Assembly (NCBI GenBank): GCA_012729555.1
Contig: JAAYCX010000010.1
Span: 124,001-188,000, forward strand
Length of the DNA stretch: 64,000 nucleotides
Direction of reading: 5' to 3'
Source: Acidobacteriota bacterium
GTDB taxonomy: Bacteria > Acidobacteriota > UBA6911
Position numbers and translations under genes: made by a program. The notes under the pieces were generated by a model. That model saw only the letters and a list, made by a program, of their open reading frames with translations. It was not told the origin of the DNA and ran no database searches. Numbering within the stretch: the first letter of the stretch is position 1; every line of letters begins with the position of its first letter. Below, in pieces: positions 45,928 to 50,745 of the stretch.

Positions 45928-46368
45928 ATGAATAACAAGAAGAGAAACCTTCGAGCCTTCGCCCCGCCGCTCCTGATGGCCGTAATCCTGCTCGCGCTCG
46001 CTCTCCTGGGGCTTTCGGCCTGCGGGCAGACCACCGCACCCGAAGCCGCCCGGCTCGAAATCGCCCCCCCGGTCCAAACGGCGGAGGAGGGCCTCCCCGA
46101 AATCGCTCTCGGGGATCTCCCGCGCGAGGCGCGCCGCACCCTGGACCTGATCCGCACGGGCGGCCCCTTCCCCTACGGCAGGGACGGGACCGTTTTCGGC
46201 AACCGGGAGCGGCTGCTCCCGACAAAAGCGCGCGGCTACTACCGCGAATACACCGTCGTCACCCCGGGGTCGCGCGACCGGGGCGCGCGCCGCATCGTCG
46301 CCGGCGCCGGCGGCGAGTACTATTACACCGACGACCATTACGACAGCTTCAGGCGTATCCGGGAGTGA
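45928..46368 (+). CDS. Barnase-like guanyl-specific ribonuclease, predicted lipoprotein
   Basis: A 146-residue protein. Residues ~1-32 are a lipoprotein signal (LLALALLGLSAC, lipobox LSAC), so the mature enzyme would be fixed to the membrane outside the cytoplasm. The rest looks like a barnase/RNase Sa fold: FPYGRDGTVFGNRERLLP, then YYREYTVVTPG (catalytic Glu), ARRIVAGAGGEYYYTDDHYDSFRRI (Arg and His). Barnase-type enzymes are toxic guanyl-specific RNases. The preferred ATG is 45928, behind ccaggggacagg; an ATG at 45904 overlaps the kinase stop. A barstar gene follows five bases later, as expected for a toxin. Confidence 0.85.
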   Translation: MNNKKRNLRAFAPPLLMAVILLALALLGLSACGQTTAPEAARLEIAPPVQTAEEGLPEIALGDLPREARRTLDLIRTGGPFPYGRDGTVFGNRERLLPTKARGYYREYTVVTPGSRDRGARRIVAGAGGEYYYTDDHYDSFRRIRE

Positions 46369-46372
46369 ACCG

Positions 46373-46831
46373 ATGACACAGTGGGACCACCTATTCGCCG
46401 ACCCCCGCCGTTCGGGCGTCTACGACCTCCTGCCTGCGGCCGTGCCCGAATTCCGCCGCGCCGCCGCCCGCTCCGGCCTCGAGCTCTTTCACCTCGACCT
46501 CGCCGGCATCGACGACAAGACCGCCTTTCTTTGCGCCGCCGCCGATCTGCTCCGCTTCCCCCCCTACTTCGGCTCCAACTGGGACGCCTTCGAGGAGTGC
46601 CTCACCGACCTTTCCTGGCTCGAAACGGAAGGCTACGTCCTGCTCGTCGAAAACCCCGACTCCTTCCGGGAAAACGCCCCGGAGGAGTTGGCGACCGCGC
46701 GCGACATCCTCGATGCCGCCGCCGCATTCTGGAATGAGCAGGGGGTCCGCTTCTTCGTGGGCATAGTTTCGGCACCCCGGGACAAAAAGGATTGCGAGGA
46801 CAAGGAAAGCCAGGAGGAGGATGATGAATAG
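46373..46831 (+). CDS. Barstar-family ribonuclease inhibitor
   Basis: A 152-residue intracellular inhibitor. LLRFPPYFGSNWDAFEECLTDLSWL is the barstar helix-loop signature whose acidic Asp/Glu plug the barnase active site, and LDLAGIDDKTAFLCAAADLL precedes it. The C-terminal tail is very acidic (DKKDCEDKESQEEDDE). It starts five bases after the ribonuclease gene, so the pair is co-expressed and gives immunity while the lipoprotein is still in the cytoplasm. It is longer than Bacillus barstar (~90 residues) because of both ends. Confidence 0.9.
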   Translation: MTQWDHLFADPRRSGVYDLLPAAVPEFRRAAARSGLELFHLDLAGIDDKTAFLCAAADLLRFPPYFGSNWDAFEECLTDLSWLETEGYVLLVENPDSFRENAPEELATARDILDAAAAFWNEQGVRFFVGIVSAPRDKKDCEDKESQEEDDE

Positions 46832-46888: not shown

Positions 46889-47758
46889 ATGGTTATGACG
46901 CACTCCGGTTTTTGCACAACAGCGCAGCGTCCGGCTTTCGTGCCCCGGTTCACCGGCAAAGAACGGGATGCGGAGACGGGACTGGATTACTTTGGGGCAA
47001 GGTACCTATCAGCAGCTCAGGGGCGATTCACCAGCGTCGATCCGATATGGATTACAAAAGAACGGCTCGCTGACCCGCAGCGACTTAATCTCTATGCATA
47101 TGGTCGAAACAATCCTCTAAAGTACATAGATCCAGATGGAATGGATATTGTCATGGGCCAATGCGGGATTGGATCAATTCAGGACTGCTTCAATGAAATG
47201 CTCACAGGGCTCAATAAGGAAGATAGATCGCATGTACGCCTGATCAAAGGTGACGGCAAGAATGGTTTTGCAAAAGGTGAATATGGAGTTGAAGTTGATA
47301 CCGATTATTCGAGCGAATCGGGCAACATGCAAACGCTACAGAAGTTGGCAGGCGATCATTCGGCAACTGCAAAGATTGATGTATTAAATCCTGACGATCA
47401 ATTTAGCGTGTTGAGTGCTACTCATTGGGATGCGAGGACGGGCAATACAGATCTTGCTCCTACAACCATGACCCCCGGAAATCCTAACGACTCAAACAGC
47501 AACAGTTTCCTGGGGTACACGTTTTTCCCATATGGAAAGGGTGTTCCGGGGCCTTGGTCAACGGGCAATTTTACCAACGTTGTAGTAAACTCTATGTCCC
47601 TGGATGGCATTTCCGTCACGATACATCACGAACTTCGGCATGTGCTACTTGGCGATTTTGGGCGTATTGCTCCGCATGGCAGACATGGGACTGGGATTGT
47701 TGACCAACAAACGGAAGAGGCGGAAAAGGAAGCCATAAAAAATCAGAGGGTGAAATGA
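46889..47758 (+). CDS. Displaced Rhs C-terminal tip with predicted metallopeptidase toxin domain
   Basis: A 289-residue fragment of an Rhs/YD-repeat protein. RFTGKERDAETGLDYFGARY through RFTSVDP and LNLYAYGRNNPLKYIDPDG is the conserved C-terminal core boundary, after which Rhs proteins change to a variable toxin. The rest (DIVMGQCGIGS...) ends in IHHELRHVLLGDFGR, an HExxH zincin site. There is no signal and no earlier YD repeat, so it is an orphan tip whose donor lies elsewhere or was lost. It is coupled to the next gene by overlapping stop and start. The gene is A/T-richer than its surroundings. The true start is uncertain. Confidence 0.7.
   Translation: MVMTHSGFCTTAQRPAFVPRFTGKERDAETGLDYFGARYLSAAQGRFTSVDPIWITKERLADPQRLNLYAYGRNNPLKYIDPDGMDIVMGQCGIGSIQDCFNEMLTGLNKEDRSHVRLIKGDGKNGFAKGEYGVEVDTDYSSESGNMQTLQKLAGDHSATAKIDVLNPDDQFSVLSATHWDARTGNTDLAPTTMTPGNPNDSNSNSFLGYTFFPYGKGVPGPWSTGNFTNVVVNSMSLDGISVTIHHELRHVLLGDFGRIAPHGRHGTGIVDQQTEEAEKEAIKNQRVK
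46949..47003 (+). repeat. Rhs core direct repeat, copy 1
   Basis: A ~55-bp stretch coding for FTGKERDAETGLDYFGAR. It recurs at 48199-48253 with the first 23 bases (ttcaccggcaaagaacggga and following) identical and a few changes later. Repeated Rhs core ends mark the recombination points of toxin-tip cassettes. Confidence 0.75.
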
Positions 47759-48168
47759 TGGGCGCTTTGTTGTTTCTTCTCTTGCCGTTCCTTTTCATGC
47801 AGCCTAACGGAGGCTCCTGCTGTGAATATCAGCGGAACCTTGAGAAAACCTCTGCGATGATTTTTTTTAGTGCCGAAGATATGCGCACTCATGTGGAATA
47901 TTTTGAGCCACTCTATCCACCGGGCTTGGATAGAAAATTAAACATCTCGGGGGTAATTGAAATGGAGGTGCGGTATGATCCCCAAGGTAAGGCCGAGTGT
48001 ATTCGGATATTATCGGGAAATCCTATTGGCGTTTCAGCGATGATGGAATCTATTGATAGGTGGCGGTTCAAACCGGCTAAGATTAACGGGATCCCAACAT
48101 GGTGTTGCGGGCGTATTGTAGTTGAGTATCGTTTCCATAAGGGAAGTGCTGCTAGTAGGCTTAAATAG
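47755..48168 (+). CDS. Small exported protein with TonB-C-terminal-like domain, possible immunity partner
   Basis: A 137-residue protein starting in an ATGATG that overlaps the Rhs-tip stop, so translation is coupled. It has a hydrophobic N terminus (LLFLLLPFLFMQ) acting as signal or anchor. Residues ~65-130 resemble the TonB C-terminal/energy-transducer fold: GVIEMEVRYDPQGKAECIRI, then SIDRWRFKPAKINGIP and VVEYRF. In Rhs modules the gene after the toxin is usually its immunity factor; the export signal would place it where an incoming metallopeptidase acts. That role is inference from position. The TonB-like domain may instead be a remnant of an unrelated gene. Confidence 0.6.
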   Translation: MMGALLFLLLPFLFMQPNGGSCCEYQRNLEKTSAMIFFSAEDMRTHVEYFEPLYPPGLDRKLNISGVIEMEVRYDPQGKAECIRILSGNPIGVSAMMESIDRWRFKPAKINGIPTWCCGRIVVEYRFHKGSAASRLK

Positions 48169-48191
48169 TACATCTAGGCTTATGACGTTGC

Positions 48192-48290
48192 CAAAATATT
48201 CACCGGCAAAGAACGGGATGCCGAAACGGGGTTGGATTACTTCGGGGCGAGGTTCTTTCCCGAATCATCCCGCGAGTATGAGCCGGTTGG
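48192..48290 (+). pseudogene. Rhs core remnant
   Basis: The frame encodes FTGKERDAETGLDYFGARFFPESSREYE and then loses family likeness, ending in a hairpin-free spacer. It carries the second copy of the 55-bp repeat (48199-48253). It is a broken Rhs end left downstream of the displaced toxin cassette. Confidence 0.65.
48199..48253 (+). repeat. Rhs core direct repeat, copy 2
   Basis: Second copy of the ~55-bp Rhs-core segment at 46949-47003. The interval between copies (~1.2 kb) contains the toxin domain and its coupled partner, as in cassette insertion by homologous recombination. Confidence 0.75.
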
Positions 48291-48401: not shown

Positions 48402-48611
48402 ATGGATAGTCGGGAGGTAATCAGGCTGCTCAAAAAGGGTGGATGGTACGAGGTCAATCAGGTCGGCAGCCATAAGCAGCTTAAGCATCCGGAGAGAAAA
48501 GGGCGCGTTACGATCCCGCATCCTAAAAGAGATATCCCGGGGGGGACGCTGAAGAGTATTGAAAAACAAGCCGGAATCAAGCTTGAAAAACATCTGCACA
48601 GCCGCGATTGA
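48402..48611 (+). CDS. hicA: HicA toxin (mRNA interferase)
   Basis: A 69-residue toxin with the dsRBD-like HicA fold. REVIRLLKKGGWYEVNQVGSHKQLKHP contains the G-S-H catalytic His, and VTIPHPKRDIPGGTLKSIEKQAGI is the family end. HicA cleaves mRNA. The ATG at 48402 follows agcgggggg. A longer frame upstream is not conserved. A promoter with good -35 and -10 boxes lies just before it and hicB follows 37 bases later, giving the standard toxin-first order. Confidence 0.92.
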   Translation: MDSREVIRLLKKGGWYEVNQVGSHKQLKHPERKGRVTIPHPKRDIPGGTLKSIEKQAGIKLEKHLHSRD

Positions 48612-48648
48612 TAAAGGGCGGCTCCATGGAAACGAAGGATGTATATAA

Positions 48649-49035
48649 ATGCAATACATCGCCTATCTGCACAAAGAGAAAAAATCAGATTACGGGGTGA
48701 GTTTCCCGGATTTTCCCGGATGCATAACTGCCGGTAAAACTCTCGAGGAAGCGCGCAGAAACGCAGTCGAGGCTTTGACCCTGCATATGGAAGGAATGCT
48801 GGAGGATGGGGATGAGATCCCGGAAGCTTCCAATCTTGACAATCTAACCCGCGATAAGGCGTTGAAAGACGCTATAGCTTTTTTGGTGGATGTAACTATC
48901 TCGGACAAGGTCGGACGATTCAATATCACGGCTCGAAAAAGCCAGATGGAGGAAATCGATCGACTGGCAAAACAGCACGGGATGTCGCGATCGGCCTATA
49001 TTGTTTCTTCCGCCCTTAACAGAAAGGCGTCATAA
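48649..49035 (+). CDS. hicB: HicB antitoxin
   Basis: A 128-residue antitoxin. The N-terminal part (IAYLHKEKKSDYGVSFPDFPGCITAG) is the partial RNase H-like HicB domain that blocks HicA, and the C-terminal ITARKSQMEEIDRLAKQHGMSRSAYIVSSAL is a ribbon-helix-helix domain that represses the operon. The order and length match known hicAB systems. It ends 53 bases before the MazF gene, which runs the other way. Confidence 0.92.
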   Translation: MQYIAYLHKEKKSDYGVSFPDFPGCITAGKTLEEARRNAVEALTLHMEGMLEDGDEIPEASNLDNLTRDKALKDAIAFLVDVTISDKVGRFNITARKSQMEEIDRLAKQHGMSRSAYIVSSALNRKAS

Positions 49036-49087
49036 ACCCGCGAAGGGGCACTGTCCATCTCTTGCTGCGGTCTTGAGGAGATTGGCT

Positions 49088-49435
49088 CTACAGATCGAGA
49101 AAGTCCCTGAGCGCAGCCTTTGTGTTTTCGATGAGGGCTTCGGGCAAAACTCCGAGTTCTCTGCGGAATAGCGAATTGTCCCAGGCCAGGACCTGGTCCA
49201 CGAGGACGTCGCGGTCGGACTCCAGCCCGCACGTCCCCAACGGAATGCGCACGCGCAGGGGGAAGGCATCACCGTCAGTCAGTCTCGTAGTCAGGGGCAG
49301 AACGACTGTGCTGCCAAGCCCCGCCTCGGCGAATTCCAACGGCTGGATGGCGAGGCAGGGACGCTGCTTGCCGGGTTTTGTCCCGACACGTGGCTCAAGA
49401 TCTACGACATATAGATGCCATTGACGGGGGTTCAC
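49088..49435 (-). CDS. MazF/PemK-type endoribonuclease toxin
   Basis: A 115-residue CcdB/PemK-like barrel. WHLYVVDLEPRVGTKPGKQRPCLAIQP is the family start with the GxKRPxL active-site Arg region, STVVLPLTTRL the Thr/catalytic strand, and LVDQVLAWDNSLF the family C-terminal part. It would cut mRNA at short sites. It starts 2 bases after the preceding antitoxin gene, so both are one unit. It may also be called ChpK-like. Confidence is good for family, unknown for specificity. Confidence 0.88.
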   Translation of the reverse strand: MNPRQWHLYVVDLEPRVGTKPGKQRPCLAIQPLEFAEAGLGSTVVLPLTTRLTDGDAFPLRVRIPLGTCGLESDRDVLVDQVLAWDNSLFRRELGVLPEALIENTKAALRDFLDL

Positions 49436-49437
49436 CG

Positions 49438-49674
49438 TCAGCTCCTTTTCAGCCTGGAGTATGGCTGGAAGTCGGCATTCACCTCCCGGCTGGTGGCGGC
49501 GGCCATCGCGGCGGCCCGTTTCCAGCGCAGGATTCGGTCCCGGCGATCCGCTTCCTTCTCGAGCAGCTCGAGCCCGGCCCTGACGATGTCCACCTTGCGG
49601 GCGATCTTCAGTCGGCGCTTGAGGACATCGATGCGGCGATCATCCTCTTCCTGGATCATCAGCGGTTTGCCCAT
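49438..49674 (-). CDS. Antitoxin partner of the MazF-type toxin
   Basis: A 78-residue, highly charged protein (RRIDVLKRRLKIARKVDIVRAGLELLEKEADRR), with a probable ribbon-helix-helix N terminus and a helical tail. It is just upstream of the toxin in a toxin-last pair. The ATG at 49674 follows ggag with good spacing. Directly upstream is a pair of 9-bp direct repeats (caagtatat, 49684-49692 and 49696-49704), likely its own operator. Family name uncertain. Confidence 0.7.
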   Translation of the reverse strand: MGKPLMIQEEDDRRIDVLKRRLKIARKVDIVRAGLELLEKEADRRDRILRWKRAAAMAAATSREVNADFQPYSRLKRS

Positions 49675-50020
49675 ATATATCTCCAAGTATATTATCAAGT
49701 ATATCGAGAAAAGCGGAAATGAAAAGGTGTTTTTGCCCGAAACAAACAGACATAAGGGCTGGATTTGCTGGTTCGCAACCCAAGGAGGCCGAAGGTCAAT
49801 AGGCGGGTATTGGGCTGGTCGCGAGGGCATCTGCTCTTTGTGGTCCTCGTCCCGTGCTTTCGGGAATCATGATGCCCGTGAGAAGGGCGACCGGAGTCCT
49901 TCAATCGCCCTTTATCGAGAGACGGATCCTTCGATGTCGGTGACAGTTCGATGCTATAGAATGGTCATGAAACCGGTGCTATCAAAAGACTTGGTAAACG
50001 GTCCAGCCGAGGGTACGGTC
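49675..50020. other. Divergent spacer between two toxin-antitoxin pairs
   Basis: About 350 bases. Near the left end are two caagtatat direct repeats spaced by 12 bases. The right end (49961-50020) encodes MKPVLSKDLVNG in frame with the next antitoxin, a probable duplicated start. No gene was found in the middle; ORFs there lack protein character. Confidence 0.55.
49684..49704 (-). promoter_or_regulatory. Paired direct repeats, probable antitoxin operator
   Basis: Two caagtatat copies, 12 bases start to start, ten bases before the antitoxin ATG at 49674. AT-rich and close to the promoter, as for autoregulated antitoxin genes. Confidence 0.45.
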
Positions 50021-50290
50021 ATGAATAAAAAGTTTTCCAAGGATTTGGTCACTGTCGGTGACTTTGAAATCAACCCCGGCTGTGTGTTGAAGCAGGTCGC
50101 GGCCACTCGCCGCGCGGTCCTGCTGACCATCCAAGGGCGAGGGGTTGCCGTCGTCCAGTCCGTCGCCGAATACGAAAAGTCTGAAGAAGAGCGGGCTTTC
50201 ATGCGCGCCGTCGTCGAGGGACTGGCGGACCTGGAGGTAAAGCGCGAAATCGGTATCCGGGAAGCCAAAGCGCGCCTGGGTCTGGAGTAA
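50021..50290 (+). CDS. Phd/YefM-type antitoxin
   Basis: An 89-residue antitoxin. KFSKDLVTVGDFEINPGCVLKQVAATRRAVLLTIQGRG is the Phd-fold DNA-binding part, then VAVVQSVAEYEKSEEERAFMRAVVEGLAD the toxin-binding helix. The ATG at 50021 follows a gagggt site. An in-frame ATG pair at 49961/49967 gives MKPVLSKDLVNGP, a near copy of the real start (MNKKFSKDLV), suggesting a local duplication. The RelE/ParE-type toxin follows four bases later. Confidence 0.85.
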   Translation: MNKKFSKDLVTVGDFEINPGCVLKQVAATRRAVLLTIQGRGVAVVQSVAEYEKSEEERAFMRAVVEGLADLEVKREIGIREAKARLGLE

Positions 50291-50294
50291 TCCC

Positions 50295-50627
50295 GTGCCT
50301 CGAAGCATCCCCGTCGGATTTGCCGAATCCGCCGTGCGGGATCTGGAGGAATTGCAGGCGTGGTACATCGAGCAGGGTGCGCCGGAAGTCAGCCAGCCGC
50401 TCGCGGCGGGGATATTCCATCGCATTGAAGGACTCCCCGATCATCCGGATATGGGCCGCACGGTTCCGGAATTCAAGCATCCGTTTTTGCGGGAGCTGAT
50501 TCATCCTCCTTCCCGCATGGATTATCGGCGAGATGCCCTGCGCAACAGAATCGTGCGCGTGTGGCGGAACGAGCGACTGCTCAAGCTGCCCCGGGAGGCC
50601 TTTGGGCCGAAAGCGTTTGGAGCATGA
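50295..50627 (+). CDS. RelE/ParE-type toxin
   Basis: A 110-residue toxin with GTG start. FAESAVRDLEELQAWYIEQGAP, IFHRIEGLPDHPDMGRTVPEF, and RNRIVRVWRNERLLKLP are the family helix, loop and final strand. ParE/RelE proteins poison gyrase or cut mRNA at the ribosome. It starts four bases after the antitoxin. The family ends here with an extension of about 15 residues (PREAFGPKAFGA). Confidence 0.88.
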   Translation: MPRSIPVGFAESAVRDLEELQAWYIEQGAPEVSQPLAAGIFHRIEGLPDHPDMGRTVPEFKHPFLRELIHPPSRMDYRRDALRNRIVRVWRNERLLKLPREAFGPKAFGA

Positions 50628-50745
50628 ACGGGTCGCTGAAAGTTTGACAAAAGCGGCATTTTATTTGAATATTGCGATACCATCTTGGTTATCTGTGCAG
50701 CGCGGGTCCATATTTCGGCAGACTTTTGCAACCGGAGTGAAGAGA

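Follow-up and report, generated by a model that had tools for sequence, protein, structure and literature searches.

A displaced Rhs tip of Acidobacteriota joins a predicted HExxH peptidase domain to an overlapping gene for an exported TonB_C protein, its likely antidote

It is documented that orphan rhs-CT pairs, devoid of translation and export signals, can become active again by recombining with a main gene (PMC3967940). In the orphan rhs-CT/rhsI pairs of Enterobacteriaceae (Koskiniemi et al., 2014, PMC3967940) a displaced tip with a partial core is followed directly by its immunity gene, translation start and delivery parts are missing, and the core provides homology for recombination. Small HExxH domains at the ends of Rhs proteins have been classified as Tox-MPTase1-5 and Tox-HopH1/M91 (Zhang et al., 2012, PMC3482391); the survey tables of that work give five Rhs-type metallopeptidase families and Tox-HopH1 without an immunity partner, and TonB is not mentioned in the text searched. 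A gluzincin that acts in the periplasm is known from the VgrG2b–PA0261 pair, in which an exported, disulfide-dependent immunity protein binds the toxin (Wood et al., 2019, PMC6899460).

Here we describe an Rhs tip in a window of 64,000 nucleotides (C10:124001-188000) from a 3.83-Mb, 98-contig MAG of the Acidobacteriota (Table 1). Zincins are a frequent kind of Rhs toxin in surveys, and in Rhs systems the gene directly 3′ of the tip is the immunity gene. The ORF encodes, in protein order, FTGKERDAETGLDYFGARY...YIDPDG and then a domain bearing HELRH. The match to TIGR03696 covers residues 18–85 (67.2 bits, cut-off 32.5), and the core ends in a DPxG-type junction (YIDPDG) right before the variable domain, the hallmark of an Rhs-CT. 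The first 15 profile positions are missing and ∼ 65 aa of core remain. No Shine–Dalgarno sequence is seen upstream of the ATG of the ORF, and a full Rhs shell with a delivery module is absent upstream of the tip, where a barstar gene lies instead. Judged by its sequence, the tip fits the orphan Rhs-CT subclass only. It differs from the enterobacterial orphans in its phylum, in the short core, in having no adjoining main rhs gene and in the families of toxin and partner. Without the Rhs shell and the start signals, which the window lacks, the toxin probably stays silent until it is recombined. The partner ATG lies inside the toxin stop region (ATGA overlap, 47755-47758) and is preceded by a ribosome-binding site, GAGGG, at 47746-47750 within the toxin gene; having kept its own ribosome-binding site, the partner may still be protective. 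GC content drops from ∼ 70% in the flanks to 43–50% across the cassette. The first-pass annotation of this DNA had proposed both the fusion of an Rhs core end to a HELRH domain and the overlap of the next start codon with its stop, and both are confirmed.

Table 1. Features of the Rhs cassette, in positions of the window.
Feature	Position	Strand	Basis or remark
Orphan Rhs-CT ORF (truncated core end and toxin domain), 289 aa	46889..47758	+	
Rhs-associated core end	46940..47143	+	TIGR03696, E=1.4e-18, covering 16-76 of the 76 profile positions
Upstream copy of the Rhs core repeat, cassette start	46949..47003	+	
Toxin domain (205 aa), a predicted gluzincin-like peptidase, unclassified	47141..47755	+	homologues and AlphaFold2 model
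HELRH, predicted Zn-binding/catalytic motif, domain helix 154-170	47627..47641	+	motif, alignment, model
Glu197, invariant, candidate third zinc ligand, C-terminal helix (EAxxN)	47729..47731	+	inferred from alignment and model
Partner ORF, 137 aa	47755..48168	+	export signal and TonB_C domain
Downstream copy of the Rhs core repeat, a truncated stump	48199..48253	+	89% over 55 bp

Gluzincins carry the HExxH motif followed by a glutamate in the next helix. The AlphaFold2 model of the toxin domain (pLDDT 82.8, pTM 0.84) has the same order, with HELRH in one helix and Glu197 in helix 185–202, the two helices being consecutive. H163, E164, H167, E197 and N201 are invariant across the four toxin homologues (see below), two of which, L030 and L031, have one extra residue in the motif and read HExxxH (HELSAH and HELRAH) in place of HExxH. 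On its own the toxin domain gave no match in Pfam, NCBIfam, PHROGs or PDB sequence searches. A fold search of the model against the PDB gave nothing significant, the best hit being a weak similarity to ADAM zincins (E=0.18, prob 0.09). Because the fold search is not significant, we infer the zincin (gluzincin-like) assignment from the motif, the helix order of the predicted fold and the conservation. The earlier prediction of a zincin is thus upheld as far as a conserved HExxH within a predicted helix is concerned, but no known zincin family or structure is matched significantly. On this basis the domain would be a zinc peptidase of the gluzincin type.

The domain resembles Tox-MPTase1-5 and Tox-HopH1/M91 in its small size, its helix order and its position at an Rhs end. 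Membership of M91/Tox-HopH1 is nevertheless not supported: PF14891 does not match, and comparison of the family profile with M91-type loci by hhalign is weak (probability 33%, with similarity confined to the HExxH region). In a leave-one-out test the toxin profile scored members of the family at 151–226 bits versus < 2 bits for M91-type tips. The four toxin domains are clearly one family by their sequences, and we propose that it is a new one with a fixed partner. Each of the four toxins has exactly two cysteines. In the toxin gene, changes are far fewer at codon positions 1 and 2 than at position 3; synonymous sites are saturated, so dN/dS is not usable and only these codon-position counts are. 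Carriage of the family by phages or plasmids was dropped as an idea, since searches of viral contigs, phages and plasmids gave no matches. A further candidate homologue (L039 in G093, E=5e-4) was set aside because its ORF encodes a lengthy secreted protein that has a HEL.H region of its own and does not sit on an Rhs core.

Homologues of the toxin domain with 35–45% identity are found in three other Acidobacteriota MAGs, one of the Bryobacteraceae (L032), one of the Pyrinomonadaceae (L030, the same as L034) and one Acidobacteria MAG without family assignment (L031, the same as L033); within our sample of the phylum the domain occurs in 3 of 396 genomes, that of the window counted. In all four genomes an Rhs core precedes the domain, and the gene for an exported TonB_C protein begins before the toxin gene has ended. 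These are four examples only, all of them from MAGs, and two seem to share a sampling project (isolates TGS_ACI2 and TGS_ACI4). L032 has the same ATGA overlap as the window, the overlaps in L030 and L031 are ∼ 20 bases long, and every partner start has a purine-rich ribosome-binding site within the toxin gene. The L031 partner matches TonB_C below the cut-off (17.8 bits) but is clearly homologous to its counterpart in L030. The arrangement is more than chance, because the same two-gene layout recurs in three other Acidobacteriota genomes, and this recurrence makes the partner the likely antidote (immunity protein) of the predicted toxin.

Control Rhs loci were drawn from a survey of 119 genomes of the phylum, 72 of which have Rhs cores. 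Thirty loci were examined and 28 were evaluable, in that the tip was closed and no fewer than 900 bases followed it. The TonB_C model found no TonB_C ORF in the flanks of these 28 tips (0/28), nor did it find one near 18 M91-type loci. The first-pass annotation had named an unrelated tonB relic as the alternative for the second gene; such a relic, placed there by chance, is ruled out by the pairing in 4/4 against 0/28. By a crude hydropathy score, ∼ 19 of the 28 control tips are followed by a protein with a strongly hydrophobic N-terminus. Exported partners thus appear to be the rule in the phylum, whereas TonB_C is specific to tips of the window type.

The partner matches TonB_C (PF03544) with 28.5 bits (cut-off 24.6, E=2e-6) and its N-terminus is predicted to be a hydrophobic export signal. 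The best PDB match of its AlphaFold model (pLDDT 81.3) is the C-terminal domain (CTD) of E. coli TonB (1xx3, E=5e-4). It was therefore correct to call this gene product a small exported TonB-C-like protein. The partner shares fold and sequence family with the TonB CTD (PF03544; PDB 1xx3, 6i97), but it lacks the build of a TonB energy transducer: at 137 aa and 6.6% Pro it has no long proline-rich spacer, and the TonB_C domain, which begins ∼ 30 aa past the hydrophobic segment, is the sole domain found. Its gene also differs from TonB genes in overlapping a toxin gene rather than keeping company with exbBD or receptor genes. A pair of cysteines sets the partners further apart, the two columns being present in 4/4 partners and in none of 15 domains from 14 other TonB-type proteins.

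The partners form a loose family. Between the window and L032 the partners are 25% identical and the toxins 45%, and when the window partner is left out of its profile it reaches 36 bits, and ordinary TonB_C domains do at least as well. A tree of the partners neither supports nor rejects a single partner clade (p-AU 0.23). The cysteine pair speaks for a common origin of the partners. The looseness of the family may reflect rapid divergence, as of immunity genes, or recruitment on more than one occasion.

The 55-bp repeat that had been noted on either side of the pair is indeed present; no other part of an Rhs core is as well conserved (FTGKERDAETGLDYFGAR), and we therefore read it as homology and not as a special signal. 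As the downstream core copy ends after 55 bp, it is taken to be the stump of another, lost tip. In the congener G085, core copies 93–95% identical to the 55-bp core of the window are spaced by ∼ 1.2–2 kb. The intervals hold different tips with overlapping exported partners, and short stumps of core resembling the one at 48199 recur. L030 likewise has a 300-bp core repeat (84%) between two successive tips. These arrays support the view of the locus as a recombining cassette, and by analogy the G085 arrays, together with the missing core and start signals of the window, match the orphan rhs-CT of PMC3967940. The upstream flank is collinear with that of the sister species G172 (93%) up to window position 46992, inside the repeat; collinearity into the repeat implies that the insertion predates the split between the two. 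The G172 contig ends at that point, so an empty site cannot be seen there. A search of the genome for the donor Rhs gene, as the first-pass annotation had advised, found none for the window tip, and neither a delivery system nor a functional donor for this tip was located. The only other Rhs, on C8, has a different tip and was rejected as donor. This gene (L007:2423-5074, G000:C8; 883 aa) is the only longer Rhs ORF of the genome and adjoins a gene that, named by eye, encodes an IS-type transposase.

We consider it probable that the locus is a displaced Rhs cassette whose toxin would be an envelope-acting gluzincin-like peptidase, neutralized by a periplasmic protein of TonB-CTD fold. Recombination in the core would place the probably silent tip on a main rhs gene, and a full-length Rhs carrier would deliver the toxin into a competitor, where it would act in the cell envelope. 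The partner, exported and presumably stabilized in the periplasm by its conserved disulfide, would bind the toxin and thereby neutralize it. The paired cysteines of the partners and the two cysteines of each toxin fit an oxidizing compartment. By analogy, VgrG2b–PA0261 appears to be the closest functional parallel: the VgrG2b C-terminal domain is likewise an HExxH toxin with an exported periplasmic immunity partner. It differs in its carrier, a T6SS VgrG and not an Rhs protein, and the toxin model presented here has no significant structural match in the PDB. For this comparison we assume that PA0261 is not of the TonB_C fold. Within the open-access papers to which our search was limited, no TonB_C immunity protein is reported, and in that literature the fold is new in this role. 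The finding provides a conserved, testable partner for one family of Rhs zincins.

The TonB_C fold of the partner also invites a reading by target mimicry, in which TonB, or the TonB-binding box of outer-membrane receptors, would be the substrate of the peptidase; the partner would be a decoy with a TonB CTD, derived from the tonB of a host, that ties up the toxin. The partner is exported to the compartment in which TonB works, has TonB_C as its only domain with no proline-rich spacer, and resembles ordinary TonB_C domains as much as it does the other partners, as descent from TonB or repeated recruitment would give. If true, this would make TonB a target of interbacterial toxins. However, the cysteine pair, which the four partners have in common and ordinary TonBs lack, points to a single descent and not to repeated recruitment, TonB_C folds are widespread among unrelated exported proteins, and the substrate side of the proposal is purely conjectural. 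We regard target mimicry as improbable, and that the toxin attacks the TonB energy-transduction system, its immunity gene having evolved from the toxin's own target, seems to us equally improbable.

Gene order and tight coupling would suit an accessory gene equally well, and every partner is exported, so the protein might be a chaperone or an export or uptake factor with a TonB-like fold and no antidote at all. Such a helper is unlikely in view of the established role of the gene right after an Rhs tip, and other zincin tips have different exported partners at the same place, as tip-specific immunity predicts. Nor do we give much credence to a decayed relic, a dead Rhs fragment that no longer functions and has a drifting partner. 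The loss of core and start signals and the 55-bp stump downstream are what decay would leave, and a search of G172, which has the upstream junction, showed no copy of the window tip. Against this, both reading frames are intact, the toxin retains all invariant residues and its codon-position pattern shows past constraint; the tip of G172 may simply be unassembled, given that its contig stops inside the repeat. An antidote that neutralizes the predicted peptidase in the periplasm is the reading we prefer to all of these.

The cassette lies between other toxin genes. Upstream, at window positions 45943-46831, are an exported barnase-like ribonuclease (PF00545, E=2e-24) and a barstar (PF01337, E=4e-28); the barstar is 93% identical in G172 and has the same junction to the Rhs core. 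Downstream, at 48402-50630, follows a toxin–antitoxin cluster with HicA, HicB, a minus-strand gene of MazF type and one that looks like RelE/ParE by eye only. Promoter, terminator and Rfam scans gave nothing above chance. L031 contains a second, unrelated HExxH Rhs tip (L031:88-1858, AHEIGHHW), which is followed by an exported YCF48/BNR-repeat protein with a weak match to Tli3 immunity. Two orphan tips from the genus of the window, with other HExxH-like motifs (L116:1266-2349, AHEIYGH; L117:3-1359, HEATH), have overlapping exported partners of no known family. Most control tips (∼ 19/28, L058-L087) precede proteins with a hydrophobic N-terminus; this suggests that toxins acting in the periplasm or at the membrane dominate among the Rhs systems of the phylum, and that its Rhs weapons often work beyond the cytoplasm.
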